A stretch of 64,000 bases of DNA from assembly GCA_003278465.1 (NCBI GenBank), contig QCFC01000005.1, positions 1 to 64,000 on the forward strand. The letters run 5' to 3'. A model generated the notes under the pieces. The model was given only the letters and a program-made list of their open reading frames with translations, was not told where the DNA came from and searched no databases. The DNA comes from Prochlorococcus sp. AG-363-B04. GTDB lineage: Bacteria; Cyanobacteriota; Cyanobacteriia; PCC-6307; Cyanobiaceae. Positions 28,189 through 62,836 of this stretch are shown here, one piece after another; the first letter of the stretch is position 1, and the number at the start of each line of letters is the position of its first letter. The translations under genes and the position numbers were made by a program.

Positions 28189-29898
28189 ATGCCCTACAAA
28201 ATCACTCGTCGAGCTTACGCAGAAACTTATGGACCCACAAAAGGCGATAGATTGAGATTAGCTGACACAGACTTAATACTTGAGGTAGAGAAGGATTACA
28301 CAATTTATGGAGATGAGGTGAAGTTTGGGGGAGGAAAAGTTATAAGGGATGGAATGGGACAGTCCCAACAAACTAGAGAAGAAGAAGCTGTCGATACAGT
28401 TATTACTAATGCAGTAGTTTTAGACTGGTGGGGAATAATTAAGGCTGATATTGGGATTAAAGATGGAAGAATTGTCGGTATAGGTAAAGCAGGTAATCCA
28501 GATACTCAGGAAGGCGTATCTATTGTAATAGGTCCAGGCACTGAGGCTATTGCTGGAGAAGGTCACATCCTTACTGCAGGAGGGATTGATTCACACATTC
28601 ATTTCATATGTCCCCAGCAAATAGAGACTTCTTTAGCAAGTGGGATTACAACAATGCTAGGAGGAGGTACTGGTCCCGCAACTGGTACTAATGCAACGAC
28701 TTGTACACCTGGTGCATTTCATATTGCACGAATGCTAGAAGCAGCAGAATCTTTTCCAATGAACTTAGGTTTTTTTGGTAAAGGAAATGCTAGTAATCCT
28801 AGAGCCTTAGAAGAACAAGTTAATGCGGGTGCTTGTGGTTTGAAATTACATGAGGATTGGGGAACCACTCCATCTTCTATTAATTGTTGTTTGGAAGTGG
28901 CTGATGATATGGATGTACAGGTTTGTATTCATACTGATACTCTTAATGAAGCTGGCTTTGTAGAAGATACTATTAATGCAATTAATGGAAGAACTATACA
29001 TACATTTCATACTGAAGGTGCTGGTGGTGGACATGCTCCAGATATCATCAAAATATGTGGTGAATCAAATGTGATTCCAAGTAGTACAAATCCTACGAGA
29101 CCATATACCAAAAATACACTTGAAGAGCATTTAGATATGTTGATGGTTTGTCATCATCTAGACCCTAAAATCCCAGAAGATATTGCTTTTGCAGAATCAA
29201 GAATTAGACGAGAAACTATAGCGGCTGAAGACATACTGCATGATATAGGTGCATTTTCAATTATTGCTAGCGACTCACAAGCAATGGGTAGGGTGGGAGA
29301 AGTAATTACGCGTACTTTCCAAACAGCTCATAAAATGAAAGTTCAGAGAGGCCCTTTGGGTAGTGACACTGATAGAAATGATAATTTTCGTTTGAAAAGA
29401 TATATCGCAAAAGTAACAATTAATCCTGCTATTGCTCATGGAATAAGTGAGCACGTTGGATCTATTGAGTGCGGGAAGATTGCTGATATGGTTTTGTGGA
29501 AACCAGGCTTTTTTGGTGTTAAGCCTGAATTGATTATTAAGTCTGGTTCTATTGCTTGGGCACAGATGGGTGACGCTAATGCATCAATCCCAACCCCTGA
29601 ACCTGTTCATGGAAGACCAATGTTTGGGGCATATGGAAAATCACTTTCTTCGAGTTCTATTACCTTTCTAAGTCATGCTGGAATGGCATCGGGTATACCT
29701 CAAGCCCTAGGACTTCAAAGAATCTGCCTACCTGTCCATAACACCAGATCTATTTCTAAGGAAAGCATGAAAGTAAATGATGCCCTTCCTTCTATTCGAG
29801 TTAACCCTGAAACATACGAGGTGTTTGCTGATGGAGAACTATTAACTTGCGAAGCAGCGGACTCACTTCCTTTAGCCCAGAGATATCTCTTGCTTTAG
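28189..29898 (+). CDS. ureC: Urease alpha (catalytic) subunit UreC
   Basis: The 569-aa nickel amidohydrolase that splits urea into ammonia and carbamate. All active-site residues are visible: His136 and His138 (DSHIHFICP), the carbamylated nickel-bridging Lys219 (GLKLHEDWG), His248 (CIHTDTLNE), His274 ([12 protein letters not shown]), flap Cys321 with catalytic His322 (MVCHHL) and Asp362 (ASDSQAMGR). Numbering is offset by about two from Klebsiella. It ends the structural operon and is followed by a strong terminator. Confidence 0.99.
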
Positions 29899-50370: not shown

Positions 50371-51222
50371 ATGGGCTTTAATCAAACTGCCGGATTGGCA
50401 GTGGCAGAATGCATGCTCCATTTAAAAAAACATAAAAACCTAAGTGTAATAGAGTTTGGCAATCAAAGATTCAAGTTAAATAAAAAAACATTAGAGAGGA
50501 TAAGCTCTAAGACGGGTGTATCATTTAACTTCTCAAAAGATAAGCAGGAATATTTGAGATCAACTAATCTATTCTATGAGCAGTTAGGTTTTAAGGAATA
50601 TTTGGCTATTGATCTAAATACTAATATGAATGCAATTGTTCTTGACTTGAATTATAATTGTAAATCAAAGTATGGCTTTAACAAACAATTTGATCTTGTC
50701 ACTAACTCTGGAACTGGTGAGCATATTTTTAATCAATATGAGGTTTTTCGTAATATGCATGAAATGACTAAGGTTGGAGGGATAATGCTAAATATATTAC
50801 CAATGGGGCCTTGGATTAATCACGGATTTTATAACTACCATCCAGTATTATTTAGAGATCTTGCATACGCCAATAATTATAAGTGGTGCTTTTTCTGGGT
50901 TGGAGATATGCTTGGTCATCTTAAGGCTGGCAACCCAAATATGGATATCAGCAAGGAGGTGCCTCGCACATATCCGTATTTATTTTATTCAGGAAATAAT
51001 CCTTCGCCGAGGGAAGAGTCATCTATAGAAAACTTTGTTAATGTTGAGATGAGAAAACATGGTCATGTTGTAATAGTTTCAGCATTTCGCAAACTAAATA
51101 ATGATGATTTTAAAATCCCTCTCCAAGGTAAATGGATTCATAATATAGAAGATGAACAACTAACTGATATAAAAGGTAGATATGCTCATCAGCCTGACAC
51201 GTTTGATGAATTTCATAGTTAG
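50371..51222 (+). CDS. Class I-like SAM methyltransferase
   Basis: 283 aa. The N-terminus MGFNQTAGLAVAE resembles the protein at 57430 (MGFSQSLCKLLAQ). A degenerate Rossmann core is visible: SVIEFGNQRF, EYLAIDLNTNMNAIVLDLNY (motif II region), FDLVTNSGTGEHIFNQYEVF, and MTKVGGIMLNILPM (after the usual post-II helix). The Gly-rich motif I is weak. Probably cotranscribed with the oxygenase upstream. Substrate unknown. Confidence 0.65.
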   Translation: MGFNQTAGLAVAECMLHLKKHKNLSVIEFGNQRFKLNKKTLERISSKTGVSFNFSKDKQEYLRSTNLFYEQLGFKEYLAIDLNTNMNAIVLDLNYNCKSKYGFNKQFDLVTNSGTGEHIFNQYEVFRNMHEMTKVGGIMLNILPMGPWINHGFYNYHPVLFRDLAYANNYKWCFFWVGDMLGHLKAGNPNMDISKEVPRTYPYLFYSGNNPSPREESSIENFVNVEMRKHGHVVIVSAFRKLNNDDFKIPLQGKWIHNIEDEQLTDIKGRYAHQPDTFDEFHS

Positions 51223-53861: not shown

Positions 53862-54764
53862 TTGCATACAGAAGCTAAGCATGTGAAGTCTGGAGAAACT
53901 CTTAGGACAGATGCACCTATTGACCATGCAGGTAAAGGAGAGAATTTTGCTCCTACTGATTTATTGGCTACGGCTGTAGGGACTTGTTTCCTTACAGTGA
54001 TGGGAATCACTGCTAAAGAAAAAGGGTGGAAATTAGATGAAATAACAGTTGCAATTGACAAGAAGATGACAACTCAGGGGCCTCGCAAGATTAGATCTTT
54101 ATTACTTCAAATTGAGATGCCAACTAATTTAGGAGCTGATCAATTAAAGGTCCTTCAAAAGGCAACGAAAGACTGTCCTGTTTTGAGAAACTTAAATCAT
54201 TCAATAAAAATCAAAGTTGAGTGGAATCAATTAAAAAAAGAAAAAAAGACTTCTCTGAATTTTGTCGCTACTAATGTCTTTCGTGAAACTCCTGATGTCA
54301 CGTTCTTTGATGCAGGAGTCGATGGCTCTAATGGATCTGATGTGGTGATTCATCACGGAGCTGCAATTTCTCCTCCTAACGACAATGAATTTGAGCAGTA
54401 TTACGTTCATTACCATCAAATTGATCACAACTTAGTTTTAGAAGGAAGCCGCACTTTTACTCTCCTCAATCCTGCATGGGATGAGCCTCATCACGTGATT
54501 TACCTCAATCCAAAAATGGGTGCTCTTCAAATACCTATTGGGACTTATCACCAATCTGTTTCAGGGACAGAGGGCAGCATGGTATTGAACCAAGCAGTAA
54601 GAGATAGGGATTTTGATCCAAGTAAGGAATTTATTCCTGTCAGTTTGCGAGATAGGGCTGATTTGCGAAATGCAAAAGCAGCTGAGCCTGTTTATTGGAT
54701 TTGGGATGATGGAAGAATCAGAAGATTGAAAGTACGTCGGGCTAGCAAAGCTAATGTTTTTTGA
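53862..54764 (+). CDS. OsmC-cupin fusion protein
   Basis: Residues 1-120 are an OsmC domain: ENFAPTDLLATAVGTCFLTV (first reactive Cys) and ATKDCPVLRNLNHS (second Cys), a thiol peroxidase pair. Residues 130-300 form a cupin-like domain: VIHHGAAISPPND, HYHQIDHNLVLEGSRTF, GTYHQSVSGTEGS, WIWDDGRIRRLK, with His that could bind metal. TTG is the annotated start, but the upstream frame reads IICRYLGDL directly before, the usual OsmC beginning (RYLGDL), without a canonical start codon. So the N-terminus is probably longer, starting at an ATT. The fusion itself is unusual. Confidence 0.75.
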   Translation: MHTEAKHVKSGETLRTDAPIDHAGKGENFAPTDLLATAVGTCFLTVMGITAKEKGWKLDEITVAIDKKMTTQGPRKIRSLLLQIEMPTNLGADQLKVLQKATKDCPVLRNLNHSIKIKVEWNQLKKEKKTSLNFVATNVFRETPDVTFFDAGVDGSNGSDVVIHHGAAISPPNDNEFEQYYVHYHQIDHNLVLEGSRTFTLLNPAWDEPHHVIYLNPKMGALQIPIGTYHQSVSGTEGSMVLNQAVRDRDFDPSKEFIPVSLRDRADLRNAKAAEPVYWIWDDGRIRRLKVRRASKANVF

Positions 54765-57429: not shown

Positions 57430-58314
57430 ATGGGGTTCTCGCAATCTCTTTGCAAACTATTAGCCCAAGAACATGCATATAAACCTTTTGAAGGAAATTT
57501 TGTTTTATTAGGTCGCCAAACTACTGGCATAACTTTCGAGGAAGCAATTGATATAATAAAAAAAGCAGGTCTGGAACCCAGATCATCAGTTGATATAGTT
57601 TATGATAGTCAAACCAAGGGCCAAAAAAAATCAAATGAGGCTTATATAACTGAAAAAACATTTCTTACTCTTCTATCAGATGTTCAAGTTTTGACAATTG
57701 ACGTTACTAGTTACGAAAGCTGCGATATTATTCATGATTTTACAAAACCAATACCTGATGAATTGAAAAATATTGCTGATGTTTTTTGGCTAGGTTCATG
57801 CTTGGACAATATGTCAAATCCATCAGCAGCATTAAACAATGCTTTCCAAATTGTAAAGCCAAATGGCAGGATAATTGATTTTGAATGTTCTCAGATGAAA
57901 TTGAGTGCTTATGTAGCGTTTTCTCCATGTTTTTTCATAGATTGGCTTGCCATTAATGAATTTAAGGATGTAAGGTTATATCTACTAGGACTAAAAAGAT
58001 CTGAAGTTTTCCGTGGACAATGGGATATTTATACGGTTTATGACTCGGGAGCTGCAGCCTATAAATACAATTTTCAGAATTTGCCTTCAGATTACATAAT
58101 TCTTACTTACTGGATTGGAGAAAAAGGAAGTTTAAGGCCATTTGCTAAGGATCCAATTCAAGCTAAATACAGACCCAAAAAAGATAATAAACCTTACATT
58201 AAGCATTTACGGTTATGGCGACAATCAAATAATAGGCCACTTATAAAGCCTACTTCTCCAGATAATATCGATCATCATGAAATCAAATACTATAAATACT
58301 TGGGGAAAATATAG
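57430..58314 (+). CDS. Methyltransferase-like protein, 294 aa
   Basis: MGFSQSLCKLLAQEHAYKPF, FVLLGRQTTGITFEEAIDII, then a Rossmann-like part DVFWLGSCLDNMSNPSAALN, FQIVKPNGRIIDFECSQM. The N-terminal MGFSxS...LLxGRQTxxxTxEEAIxxxKK pattern is a known family in picocyanobacteria, linked with sugar or lipid methylation. The Gly-rich motif I is replaced, so activity is uncertain. It resembles 50371 in its start. No close neighbour on the strand. Confidence 0.65.
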   Translation: MGFSQSLCKLLAQEHAYKPFEGNFVLLGRQTTGITFEEAIDIIKKAGLEPRSSVDIVYDSQTKGQKKSNEAYITEKTFLTLLSDVQVLTIDVTSYESCDIIHDFTKPIPDELKNIADVFWLGSCLDNMSNPSAALNNAFQIVKPNGRIIDFECSQMKLSAYVAFSPCFFIDWLAINEFKDVRLYLLGLKRSEVFRGQWDIYTVYDSGAAAYKYNFQNLPSDYIILTYWIGEKGSLRPFAKDPIQAKYRPKKDNKPYIKHLRLWRQSNNRPLIKPTSPDNIDHHEIKYYKYLGKI

Positions 58315-58679: not shown

Positions 58680-59354
58680 CTAATTATTTAAAACTGCAAG
58701 ATAATAGGTTTCTTCATATATTTTTGAATCCTTCCTGATGCTGGTTTTTAAGTGTTCCTGTATAATTTTATCACCTAGTAGTTCTCTTATTTCTTCAAGA
58801 TTAAATTCTTTAATATGATATTTAGAGACTAATTCCTTAGAAATAAAAAGAGGTGTGCCAACAAGTGCAGTTCCTCCAGGCTTTAGGAGAAATTTTATTA
58901 GCTCAATCAGTTGCTTAGGGTTGGGGAGGTGTTCTATGACATCTACTGAGAATATAAAATCAAATGAATGAGGAGGTAGACCTGTAAAAGCATTTTTTAG
59001 AAGAAAGCAGGACAGAATTACGTTATTTATTTGGTAGAGTCTTAATGCCTCTCTACCATATTTAATTGCATCTGGTTCTGCATCAAAACCATATATTTGT
59101 GAATTAGGAAGCTTTTCAGCGAGTAACCCACATGTCGCACCATCACCACACCCAATATCTAAAATTCTTTTAGGGTTGATCTTTAGGGCTGTTTCAAGGA
59201 CAGTATTTGCTATGTCTACATATTCCTGTCGAGGCTGCTTCTTGTCGGTACCTCTTAAAAGTTTCCAGTGATAATAACCTTTTATAGTATATTTATCAAA
59301 ACCTATGAAATTTTCATCATCTCGATAACTATTAATTTCAGATTCGGAATTCAT
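58680..59354 (-). CDS. Class I SAM-dependent methyltransferase
   Basis: 224 aa. Motif I is RILDIGCGDGATCGLLAEKL (the Gly-rich SAM loop), then IYGFDAEPDAIKYG (motif Post I), FDFIFSVDVIEHLPNPKQLI and LKPGGTALVGTP. This is the UbiG/Methyltransf_11 pattern. Length is normal. It is convergent with the repeat fragment and follows the FkbM fusion gene in the same direction (96 bases apart), so both may be cotranscribed. Substrate unknown; glycan or lipid. Confidence 0.88.
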   Translation of the reverse strand: MNSESEINSYRDDENFIGFDKYTIKGYYHWKLLRGTDKKQPRQEYVDIANTVLETALKINPKRILDIGCGDGATCGLLAEKLPNSQIYGFDAEPDAIKYGREALRLYQINNVILSCFLLKNAFTGLPPHSFDFIFSVDVIEHLPNPKQLIELIKFLLKPGGTALVGTPLFISKELVSKYHIKEFNLEEIRELLGDKIIQEHLKTSIRKDSKIYEETYYLAVLNN

Positions 59355-59450: not shown

Positions 59451-61247
59451 TTAGAGAAAATCAGATATTTCTCCTAGATTGATGAGAAATTCATTTTGCT
59501 TTATATTATTGATTAGATTATGCATTACCTTCCTTTCTCTTAGAAGATAGTCTACTAATATTAAAGGTCTTGCAATATCTGTAATAGGAGGAAACAATGC
59601 ATGCCCGGAATTATTTTTATAAATAGAAAGAGAATTAGAGTCAAGATTAAATAGATCACATTCAGGATTTACTAGAAGGATTGCTTGTCCTTCGTCTAAT
59701 TGCACCTTCTTATTCCTAAATAATTTTAAGTTATTGGACTCATTTCCATGATCTTCGATGTAGATTTCTTTTTTGTAATTAATCGCATGATAATTTGCAT
59801 AATGTGAAGGATATTTAGTGAACCCTTGAGGATTAATCCTAGAAAAGCTGGCGCTTTCTGTCTCGGAAATTATAGAAGTAGAAGTTGAAAATGGTAAGAC
59901 TGGTATGATAAGTGCACATAGAGTGATAGTACTATCGTTATGACGTGTTAGATATTGACCTGGAAAATCAACAAAATGTCTGATACGGCAAGTCAGTAAA
60001 TAATTAGGCTTAGTAAATTCTTTGTTATATGCAGATCTCTTTTTTGGGTTATTCACCAAACTAAAGTTTGAATAGAGAATAATTTCTTTTATTAATTTGG
60101 GATCTGTAAAAGTATTAGTAATAAATTCATAATATTCTGGATTTGAAGCCTGAATTTGATTGGAGTTTAGACTAATACGACATGATTTTACTGACTTTTG
60201 ATATTGCGGAGTTCCTACATTGAATTCAATTATATTATTGGAATCTGTAATTTGATTCAGCAGTAATTTCCTAGCTTGCTTGACCTGCTTAGGACTTAAT
60301 AAGTCGCTAACAATTGCTACTGGAGGAACTTTGCTAAATTCAAGAAGTTTGGTTTCCCTATTAATAAACTCGTTTGTGACAAAAGTTTTATGTGATTCGT
60401 TACCTGATTCATTTCCATATTTTGCGTAGAGTTTTAGATGTTGTTTTTTTATGGCATCAGAGATTAAGAATGCAGATATTTGTTCTGGTGTAAATGATGG
60501 AATAAAAACATGTTCAGCAAACCCAATATATGGCCCATCTTTCCTAATTGCTTTTTCTACTTGTTCATACGAACATATAAATCCTGCTGAATAAAGCTTA
60601 TTAATTAGAGCCTTATGAGAATGAATTAAAGGATTTAATTCAACCTGAATGCTACTAATCCTGTGAATTAAACTAGAAGAAAATAGGCTTTCACAAACAT
60701 CTTCCTCTATCCCATCTACATCTAACTTGATATGTAGTGGAGCATCGTTAGGTGCATGTATAGAGGATATAAGCTGTTCTAATGAAATGTAATAAACTGA
60801 CTTGTAAAGTCTATCTTTATGATGAGGGTTAAGCATGTAATCTTGATTTTTACCCAATTGATGTTGGCTTTTCCCTGGCTCATCGCTAGCTATATATAGT
60901 TGTTGAATTTGATCTGAATATTTAGTAGAAATTGCTAGCGGTAAGACGTCTAACTTTCCATGTGTATCTGAATTGCGCTCCCGATTAGCTAATAATTCAA
61001 TATAATTTTTAGGCTCTGGCTCTATGGCTATTACTTTCTGTGCATGAAATAATGCAGCTGGGATAGAATAGATTCCAATATTTGCGCCTATATCAATTAG
61101 CCAGGAATCATTGGTGAAACACTGAAGCCATTCAAGTATTGTAGGCTCCTTAAACTTTAAGGTAGCTGCTCGCCAAGCAGTTGTTTTATTAGTACCACGT
61201 ATCTTGAAAACACCAAATGGTGAGTAATCTACGTTGATGAAATCCAA
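59451..61247 (-). CDS. FkbM methyltransferase fused to a 2OG-Fe(II) oxygenase
   Basis: 598 aa, two enzymes in one chain. Residues 1-250: FkbM methyltransferase (IDIGANIGIYSIPAALF with D52; IAIEPEPKNYIELLA; IKLDVDGIEEDVCESL). Residues 300-570: 2OG oxygenase (IVSDLLSPKQ, then HFVDFPGQYLTRHNDSTITL with iron ligands H436 and D438, and NNSGHALFPPITDIARPLIL with H549 and R560). Both have their key residues. The fusion suggests consecutive O-methylation and hydroxylation of one substrate. Rare in the family as far as I know. Its downstream neighbour is a separate methyltransferase. Confidence 0.82.
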   Translation of the reverse strand: MDFINVDYSPFGVFKIRGTNKTTAWRAATLKFKEPTILEWLQCFTNDSWLIDIGANIGIYSIPAALFHAQKVIAIEPEPKNYIELLANRERNSDTHGKLDVLPLAISTKYSDQIQQLYIASDEPGKSQHQLGKNQDYMLNPHHKDRLYKSVYYISLEQLISSIHAPNDAPLHIKLDVDGIEEDVCESLFSSSLIHRISSIQVELNPLIHSHKALINKLYSAGFICSYEQVEKAIRKDGPYIGFAEHVFIPSFTPEQISAFLISDAIKKQHLKLYAKYGNESGNESHKTFVTNEFINRETKLLEFSKVPPVAIVSDLLSPKQVKQARKLLLNQITDSNNIIEFNVGTPQYQKSVKSCRISLNSNQIQASNPEYYEFITNTFTDPKLIKEIILYSNFSLVNNPKKRSAYNKEFTKPNYLLTCRIRHFVDFPGQYLTRHNDSTITLCALIIPVLPFSTSTSIISETESASFSRINPQGFTKYPSHYANYHAINYKKEIYIEDHGNESNNLKLFRNKKVQLDEGQAILLVNPECDLFNLDSNSLSIYKNNSGHALFPPITDIARPLILVDYLLRERKVMHNLINNIKQNEFLINLGEISDFL

Positions 61248-61405: not shown

Positions 61406-61741
61406 TTAAACATCGAGAGAAATTTCTAATAATCGATTGGCTACTGCTGGAGCAGCATTCATAAGAATGCTATGGCTTTGATCCAGGGCATCTTTTGTTT
61501 GTTCCGCTAAAAATTGCAGGCTGTCTGGATGAGATCTGACATATCGAAGCAACATTCGGTATTCCATATCGGCTGCGGCAGCTTCATCTTTCCATGACGC
61601 ACCACCACTCCTCATAGTTAATACCCTTTGGACATTTGGAGGCAGAGGTATTTCATCTATAGTTTGACAATCGCTAAAAACCCAATCGGGGCGACAGGAT
61701 TCGAACCTGCGATCTAGTGCTCCCAAAGGACAAGGCCTCAA
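61406..61741 (-). CDS. Small-terminase/HTH-like protein; start uncertain (tRNA remnant lies within the frame)
   Basis: The body of the protein (IPLPPNVQRVLTMRSGGASW, KDEAAAADMEYRMLLRYVRS, HPDSLQFLAEQTKDALDQSH) looks like a helix-turn-helix unit such as a phage small terminase: SW-x2-EAAxxxxxxxxxLxRYxxxHPDxLxF. The frame upstream crosses the tRNA-Pro remnant at 61686-61730, so the first 40 residues are not original. The ATG at 61615 (MRSGGASW) would remove conserved-looking residues. The gene may have lost its own start at an integration point. Confidence 0.5.
   Translation of the reverse strand: MRPCPLGALDRRFESCRPDWVFSDCQTIDEIPLPPNVQRVLTMRSGGASWKDEAAAADMEYRMLLRYVRSHPDSLQFLAEQTKDALDQSHSILMNAAPAVANRLLEISLDV
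61686..61730 (-). other. tRNA-Pro (UGG) 3'-end remnant
   Basis: On the minus strand: anticodon-loop part ctttgggag (TGG anticodon at 61723-61725), then gatcgcagg-ttcgaat-cctgtcgccccga, the T arm and 3' acceptor half with discriminator A at 61686. The 5' half (acceptor, D arm) is missing. This is the shape of an attachment-site scar: a tRNA 3' end left or carried by a tRNA-targeting integrase. Confidence 0.8.
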
Positions 61742-62539: not shown

Positions 62540-62836
62540 ATGTCGCTACGTCATCCTCTTTTTCATCGAACAATCTTGGCTCTTTTTTGGGATTCACAAG
62601 AGGCTGGTCTTCGTTCTGAGGCTGCCAAAGAGAAGGAGGAACTTACCCCTTACAGCTTTAGGCATCGTTATGCCTATTACGGTCACAACCGTCCTCAGTT
62701 AGATGGGAGTTACAGAGCACCCAAGCAAATAGCTGATGCAATGGGGCACACCTTGGATACTCATCTCTTGAGCTACGCCAGGTTTAAAACAAGAGATTTG
62801 GCTGAATCATTCGATCAATATCCAGTAGCGAAATGA
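62540..62836 (+). pseudogene. Tyrosine recombinase, C-terminal fragment
   Basis: 98 residues: KEELTPYSFRHRYAYYGHNR and PKQIADAMGHTLDTHLLSYA. The catalytic R-H-R (Arg and His of SFRHRYA), H (MGHTLDTH) and Y (LLSYARF) of the integrase family are all here, but the N-terminal domain and first catalytic Arg are absent, and a TAG lies immediately upstream in frame. A decayed integrase whose copies remain at 39514 and 40580. It ends in a 4-base overlap with the next frame. Confidence 0.8.

Follow-up and report, generated by a model that had tools for sequence, protein, structure and literature searches.

A predicted FkbM methyltransferase-2-oxoglutarate oxygenase fusion in Prochlorococcus, with an oxygenase half of a family that domain libraries do not recognise

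In marine picocyanobacteria, phage attachment and grazing are generally considered to be governed by surface glycans, whose decorating enzymes are mostly uncharacterised. The window analysed here, a 64,000-nucleotide stretch comprising positions 1 to 64,000 of contig QCFC01000005.1 of Prochlorococcus sp. AG-363-B04 (assembly GCA_003278465.1), contains a reverse-strand open reading frame (ORF) at 59451-61247, with a TTG start and without internal stop, which encodes a 598-residue protein in which an FkbM-family domain is followed by a domain of the Fe(II)/2-oxoglutarate (2OG) oxygenase type. The FkbM assignment of the N-terminus, proposed in an earlier note on this DNA, was borne out by two family models above their curated cut-offs: TIGR01444 covers residues 50-204 (2.5e-15, 57.2 bits against a cut-off of 37.7), and PF05050 matches the N-terminal half above its gathering score (9e-8, 32.9 bits against 22.7). 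The motifs expected for binding of S-adenosylmethionine (SAM) are intact, namely LIDIGANIG (DxGAxxG), IEPEPKN (acidic EP) and IKLDVDGIE (KxDVDGxE). On sequence grounds the N-terminal half is an FkbM-family methyltransferase, with predicted methyl-transfer activity.

Searches of Pfam, NCBIfam, PHROGs and PDB sequences gave no match for the C-terminal half (approximately residues 290-598), and the Pfam 2OG family models matched 0 of the 11 members of its domain family at E values up to 5, such a match being not strictly defining for the Fe(II)/2OG oxygenase superfamily. An AlphaFold2 model of this half was built from six sequences, with a mean predicted local distance difference test (pLDDT) score of 68 and a predicted template modelling (pTM) score of 0.74. 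The best 50 PDB matches of the model in Foldseek were all Fe(II)/2OG-type dioxygenases, headed by PolD (3.6e-4, probability 1.00), and its matches include phytanoyl-CoA hydroxylase, SptF, AndA, PHD2, AviO1, SnoN, KanJ and MysH. The putative metal-binding residues H436-x-D438 and H549, and the putative 2OG-binding R560, are invariant in all 11 aligned sequences containing the region, as are R357, R421, R423, D427, T442 and D566; R560 lies 11 residues past the distal H549, as expected for Fe and 2OG binding. The possibility that the C-terminal part would fail to match the 2OG fold was thus examined by structure modelling and not borne out, and the key residues previously read in both domains are present. 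The TM-scores are modest, so that the fold class, a 2OG-type double-stranded beta-helix, is well supported by the model but structural details are not. The predicted oxygenase half is, by comparison with domain libraries, a family that these libraries do not recognise.

Some relatives raise the question of whether such proteins are still bifunctional, or whether one half has degenerated into a binding module, leaving catalysis to the other. The IKxDVDGxE motif is degraded in the relatives on contig C5 of genome G101 and in genome G020 (IKIGVGQIQ, IKINAANIG), and in 15 of 15 pairs the oxygenase half has diverged more rapidly than the FkbM half (59% identity for FkbM and 32% for the oxygenase between the window protein and its homologue in genome G019). 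The window protein, however, has both motif sets intact, with its four predicted oxygenase active-site residues invariant in all 11 sequences that include them, and loss of one activity is regarded as improbable for it. Relatives with the degraded motif lie at L036 942-2744 (-) and L031 12002-13116 (+), and the methyltransferase half there may be inactive. For the window protein, the two enzyme classes alone are assigned with high confidence, and the reading as a fused enzyme for methylation and hydroxylation has good support, making this one protein with two predicted activities that are open to direct testing.

Table 1. Features of the fused gene and its surroundings, by position in the window
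Feature	Position	Strand	Evidence
FkbM-family SAM-dependent methyltransferase domain, residues 1-262	60462..61247	-	TIGR01444, PF05050, FkbM-domain tree; motifs LIDIGANIG, EPEP, IKLDVDGIE
C-terminal Fe(II)/2OG oxygenase-type domain, residues 290-598, family not in Pfam	59454..60380	-	Foldseek PDB matches, invariant residues
H436 codon, predicted first Fe ligand of the HxD motif (role from the 2OG fold)	59940..59942	-	Invariant 11/11
H549 codon, predicted distal Fe ligand	59601..59603	-	Invariant 11/11
R560 codon, putative 2OG-binding arginine	59568..59570	-	Invariant 11/11
Class I SAM methyltransferase, 224 aa, downstream neighbour	58680..59354	-	PF13847 8.4e-18; homologue in G101 contig C5
Separate 2OG-Fe(II) oxygenase, PF13640/G036 type, 288 aa	49395..50261	+	PF13640 8.8e-7; G036 oxygenase half matched 9.1e-10
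Truncated tRNA-Pro(TGG) 3' half, 47 bases	61682..61728	-	46/47 identical to intact tRNA, contig C5 85775-85848 (-)

The fusion is conserved at six or more loci besides the window. A full-length homologue with 44% identity is carried by G019, and whole fusions are also present in G060, G065, G101 and G137, the last of these being a single contig scored 100% complete, while copies cut at the 5' or 3' side occur on contig C27 of G101 and in G020, where the cut is made by the contig end. Carriers include the Prochlorococcus single-cell genomes AG-363-O16, AG-363-J23, AG-409-J19 and AG-409-N21, for which PMC6122165 is the dataset. The source assembly is fragmented and 78% complete, which would be compatible with a chimera of two adjacent genes, the assembly artefact against which the earlier note had cautioned; recurrence of the same fusion in several other picocyanobacterial genomes, including the single-contig one, refutes this explanation and leaves it with negligible probability. 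The oxygenase domain also stands alone, with one copy each in G060 and G065 and two in G101.

Across 400 genomes of the family, the oxygenase domain was found in 6 by single-sequence search (E<=0.01) and in 11 by profile search, several of the latter being marginal, and a search of 390 genomes from the class gave no credible relatives outside the picocyanobacterial family. A stand-alone domain in G106 (L052 1249-2112 (+), profile E 2.4e-9), with the HxD motif present, is related very distantly. A viral origin was considered and rejected, as scans of viral contigs found no relative; a tblastn search of phage sequences recovered the FkbM half alone, at 32% in one record with an unfused methyltransferase coding sequence, and a viral structure library gave generic 2OG matches, many from cyanophage, at E 2e-4 or weaker. 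No description of an FkbM-2OG fusion in cyanobacteria was found in the literature searched.

The FkbM-domain tree groups the window-type fusions in one clade (100/100), to which the cut copy of G020 and a single unfused member, that of G270, also belong. In contrast to the FkbM family at large, nearly all members of this picocyanobacterial subclade have a C-terminal oxygenase. A second fusion, present in G036 and G099 of the same cyanobacterial family, has the same domain order and FkbM halves of 33-39% identity to that of the window, but its oxygenase half is of the PF13640 type, a different family that is not significantly alignable with the window domain, and it forms a separate FkbM clade (98/91). 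Homology of the window oxygenase half was undetected by hhalign both to the G036 oxygenase half and to the other 2OG gene of the window (49395). Loci of the PF13640-type fusion were observed at L032 9091-10650 (-) and L069 1480-3072 (-), in two genomes of 2.9-3.0 Mb.

The branches of the FkbM tree force at least two changes of fusion state, and coupling of the two enzymes by fusion has apparently been reached at least twice within one bacterial family, with different oxygenase families. G294 and G270 each have an unfused FkbM gene that is adjoined by a PF13640-type oxygenase gene (sub-threshold, 2-3e-4). The recurrence of this pairing, both by at least two fusions and as neighbouring genes, suggests that the two enzymes act on the same substrate. 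In the tree of oxygenase domains, one branch (79/91) has the fused copies all to the same side, which fits a single fusion event for the window type.

Around the fused gene, the additional oxygenase and methyltransferase-like genes reported previously were confirmed in part: the downstream methyltransferase and the separate oxygenase both have significant family matches (Table 1), but the genes at 50371 and 57430 are methyltransferase-like at sub-threshold scores only. The downstream methyltransferase is a candidate same-pathway partner of the fused gene. The product of the gene at 57430-58314 (+) lacks a clear SAM motif I, and it weakly matches (1.5e-5) one segment of the model for the radical SAM maturase DarE. 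Other neighbours are OsmC-like, ABM and DUF1330 genes, and an ORF at 53862-54764 (+) encodes 300 residues, in which an OsmC domain at the N-terminus is followed by a cupin-looking C-terminal part of ~170 residues that matched nothing; a homologue lies on contig C17 of G101. ORF coverage is low between approximately 28 and 60 kb. At 28344-28630 (-), the Rfam model 5_ureB_sRNA (RF02514) matches with 101 bits, a match which may be driven by conserved ureB coding sequence and not by a real antisense RNA.

The view of this region as an island is only partly upheld. Direct repeats of the tRNA-Pro 3' end, the truncated copy in the window and the intact gene further along contig C5, flank an interval of ~24 kb, and integrase-like fragments lie between them at 62540-62836 and at contig C5 70512-71003. 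Tyrosine recombinase sequence was limited to short fragments among the interval ORFs scanned, the best PF00589 match (E 0.0089) being below the cut-off. The interval appears to be a decayed integration targeted to a tRNA, possibly of the tycheposon kind. The fused gene itself lies 435 bp outside it, ending at 61247, with the repeat starting at 61682. Within the interval, an ORF at L041 4988-7624 (-), equivalent to contig C5 64988-67624, encodes 878 residues with tetratricopeptide repeats followed by a methyltransferase domain.

The role of the fused protein was considered from the neighbourhoods of its relatives. In G065, a Wbp-like nucleotide-sugar set is present on the same strand (UDP-sugar dehydrogenase, Gfo/Idh, DegT aminotransferase, hexapeptide acetyltransferase and amidotransferase), GT2 genes lie beside the copies in G060 and G101, a sulfotransferase is upstream of the copy in G020, and TylF and rhamnosyl-O-methyltransferase/CmcI-like genes are near the copies in G101. 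The G060 cluster starts about 200 bp from a tRNA-Met gene. These glycan-type neighbours favour surface-glycan tailoring, by which the FkbM domain would use SAM to methylate what is most likely a sugar hydroxyl, and the C-terminal domain would hydroxylate or otherwise oxidise the same glycan. The substrate would most likely be a surface polysaccharide, the O-chain of lipopolysaccharide, or its nucleotide-sugar or oligosaccharide precursor, and the two active sites are probably independent, joined so that both modifications would land on the same chain. Catalysis, substrate, product, step order and surface location are all predictions of this model, and the whole reading, a bifunctional enzyme that tailors surface glycans by methylation plus hydroxylation, is considered moderately probable.

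Several observations weigh against it. No neighbourhood is common to all fused members and no conserved operon was found among the relatives, the copy in G019 adjoins the core genes ksgA, ispE and secDF, and no glycosyltransferase adjoins the fused gene in the window among the ORFs scanned. Confidence in the structure model is modest (pLDDT 68; TM-scores of about 0.3-0.5), and FkbM enzymes can have peptide or small-molecule substrates as well (PMC9259500). As the neighbourhoods are not conserved between relatives, no pathway is defined by them.

An alternative substrate would be a peptide or small-molecule natural product, which the protein would modify as an FkbM N- or O-methyltransferase and 2OG hydroxylase in the manner of pathways for ribosomally synthesised and post-translationally modified peptides (RiPPs). 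The FkbM enzyme EreM is an N-methyltransferase of a RiPP backbone, and hydroxylation is also part of its pathway (PMC9259500), a radical SAM gene occurs near the G020 copy, and the weak DarE match of the gene at 57430 is in the same direction. In a simple leader-motif scan around the gene and its relatives, however, no ORF resembled a precursor with a leader of the GG type. The neighbours in the relatives are sugar enzymes, and a natural-product role is judged unlikely. Between the glycan and small-molecule tailoring suggested by the earlier note, the glycan role is the better supported, by the neighbourhoods of relatives and with a putative substrate; that the route is one not yet described was not shown, given the unconserved neighbourhoods and the existence of a known methyltransferase-2OG fusion, EvdMO1.

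The best PDB matches of the full-length model were three chains of EvdMO1 (PDB 6ec3; 5e-6), aligned over ~575 columns, indicating that both halves occur in the same order. The EvdMO1 structure was reportedly the work of Starbird et al. in 2018. No sequence similarity was detected alongside this match, 6ec3 being absent from the results of phmmer and profile searches of PDB sequences. Since EvdMO1 and AviO1, which is among the matches of the C-terminal model, are both from orthosomycin pathways, a coupled reaction was also considered, in which the oxygenase acts on the methyl ether set by its own methyltransferase, resulting in a methylenedioxy bridge or demethylation. The recurrent pairing with O-methyltransferases, in two separate fusions and with TylF and rhamnosyl-type enzymes beside other copies, is consistent with such coupling, but the model resembles many other 2OG enzymes at least as closely as AviO1, and a coupled reaction is unlikely. 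The broader proposition is likewise a long shot, namely that picocyanobacteria have a novel family of 2OG oxygenases, coupled more than once to sugar O-methyltransferases, which oxidises the methyl ether made by its fused partner, either to a methylenedioxy bridge or in a controlled demethylation; if true, the surface glycan would be bridged or switchable, a kind unknown in cyanobacteria.

Under the preferred reading of independent methylation and hydroxylation of a surface glycan, the closest known system is EvdMO1 itself, a methyltransferase-oxidase fusion of everninomicin biosynthesis whose structure, as worded in the title of the report cited in PMC10338323, suggests independent activity of its domains. 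Like the window protein, EvdMO1 has methyltransferase and oxidase in one chain and in the same order, and it belongs to an oligosaccharide pathway. It differs in length (about 415 residues against 598) and in setting, everninomicin being a secreted antibiotic whereas no antibiotic cluster was seen around the window gene. The window protein appears EvdMO1-like in its modelled architecture, which does not extend to demonstrated membership of the EvdMO1 family. With the 2OG-Fe(II) oxygenases of the PolD, PhyH, PHD2, AviO1 and KanJ fold group, the C-terminal domain shares the predicted fold and the HxD...H...R residues, but it differs from that group in being missed by the Pfam 2OG models, in having four extra invariant charged residues (R357, R421, R423 and D427) before the metal site, and in a D438-H549 spacing of 111 residues that is longer than expected for a minimal 2OG domain. 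EvdMO1 thus sets a precedent for fusing a methyltransferase to a 2OG enzyme in an oligosaccharide pathway; what is new here is the unrecognised oxygenase family that this gene defines, in a natural counterpart of EvdMO1 from outside the antibiotic clusters of actinobacteria.
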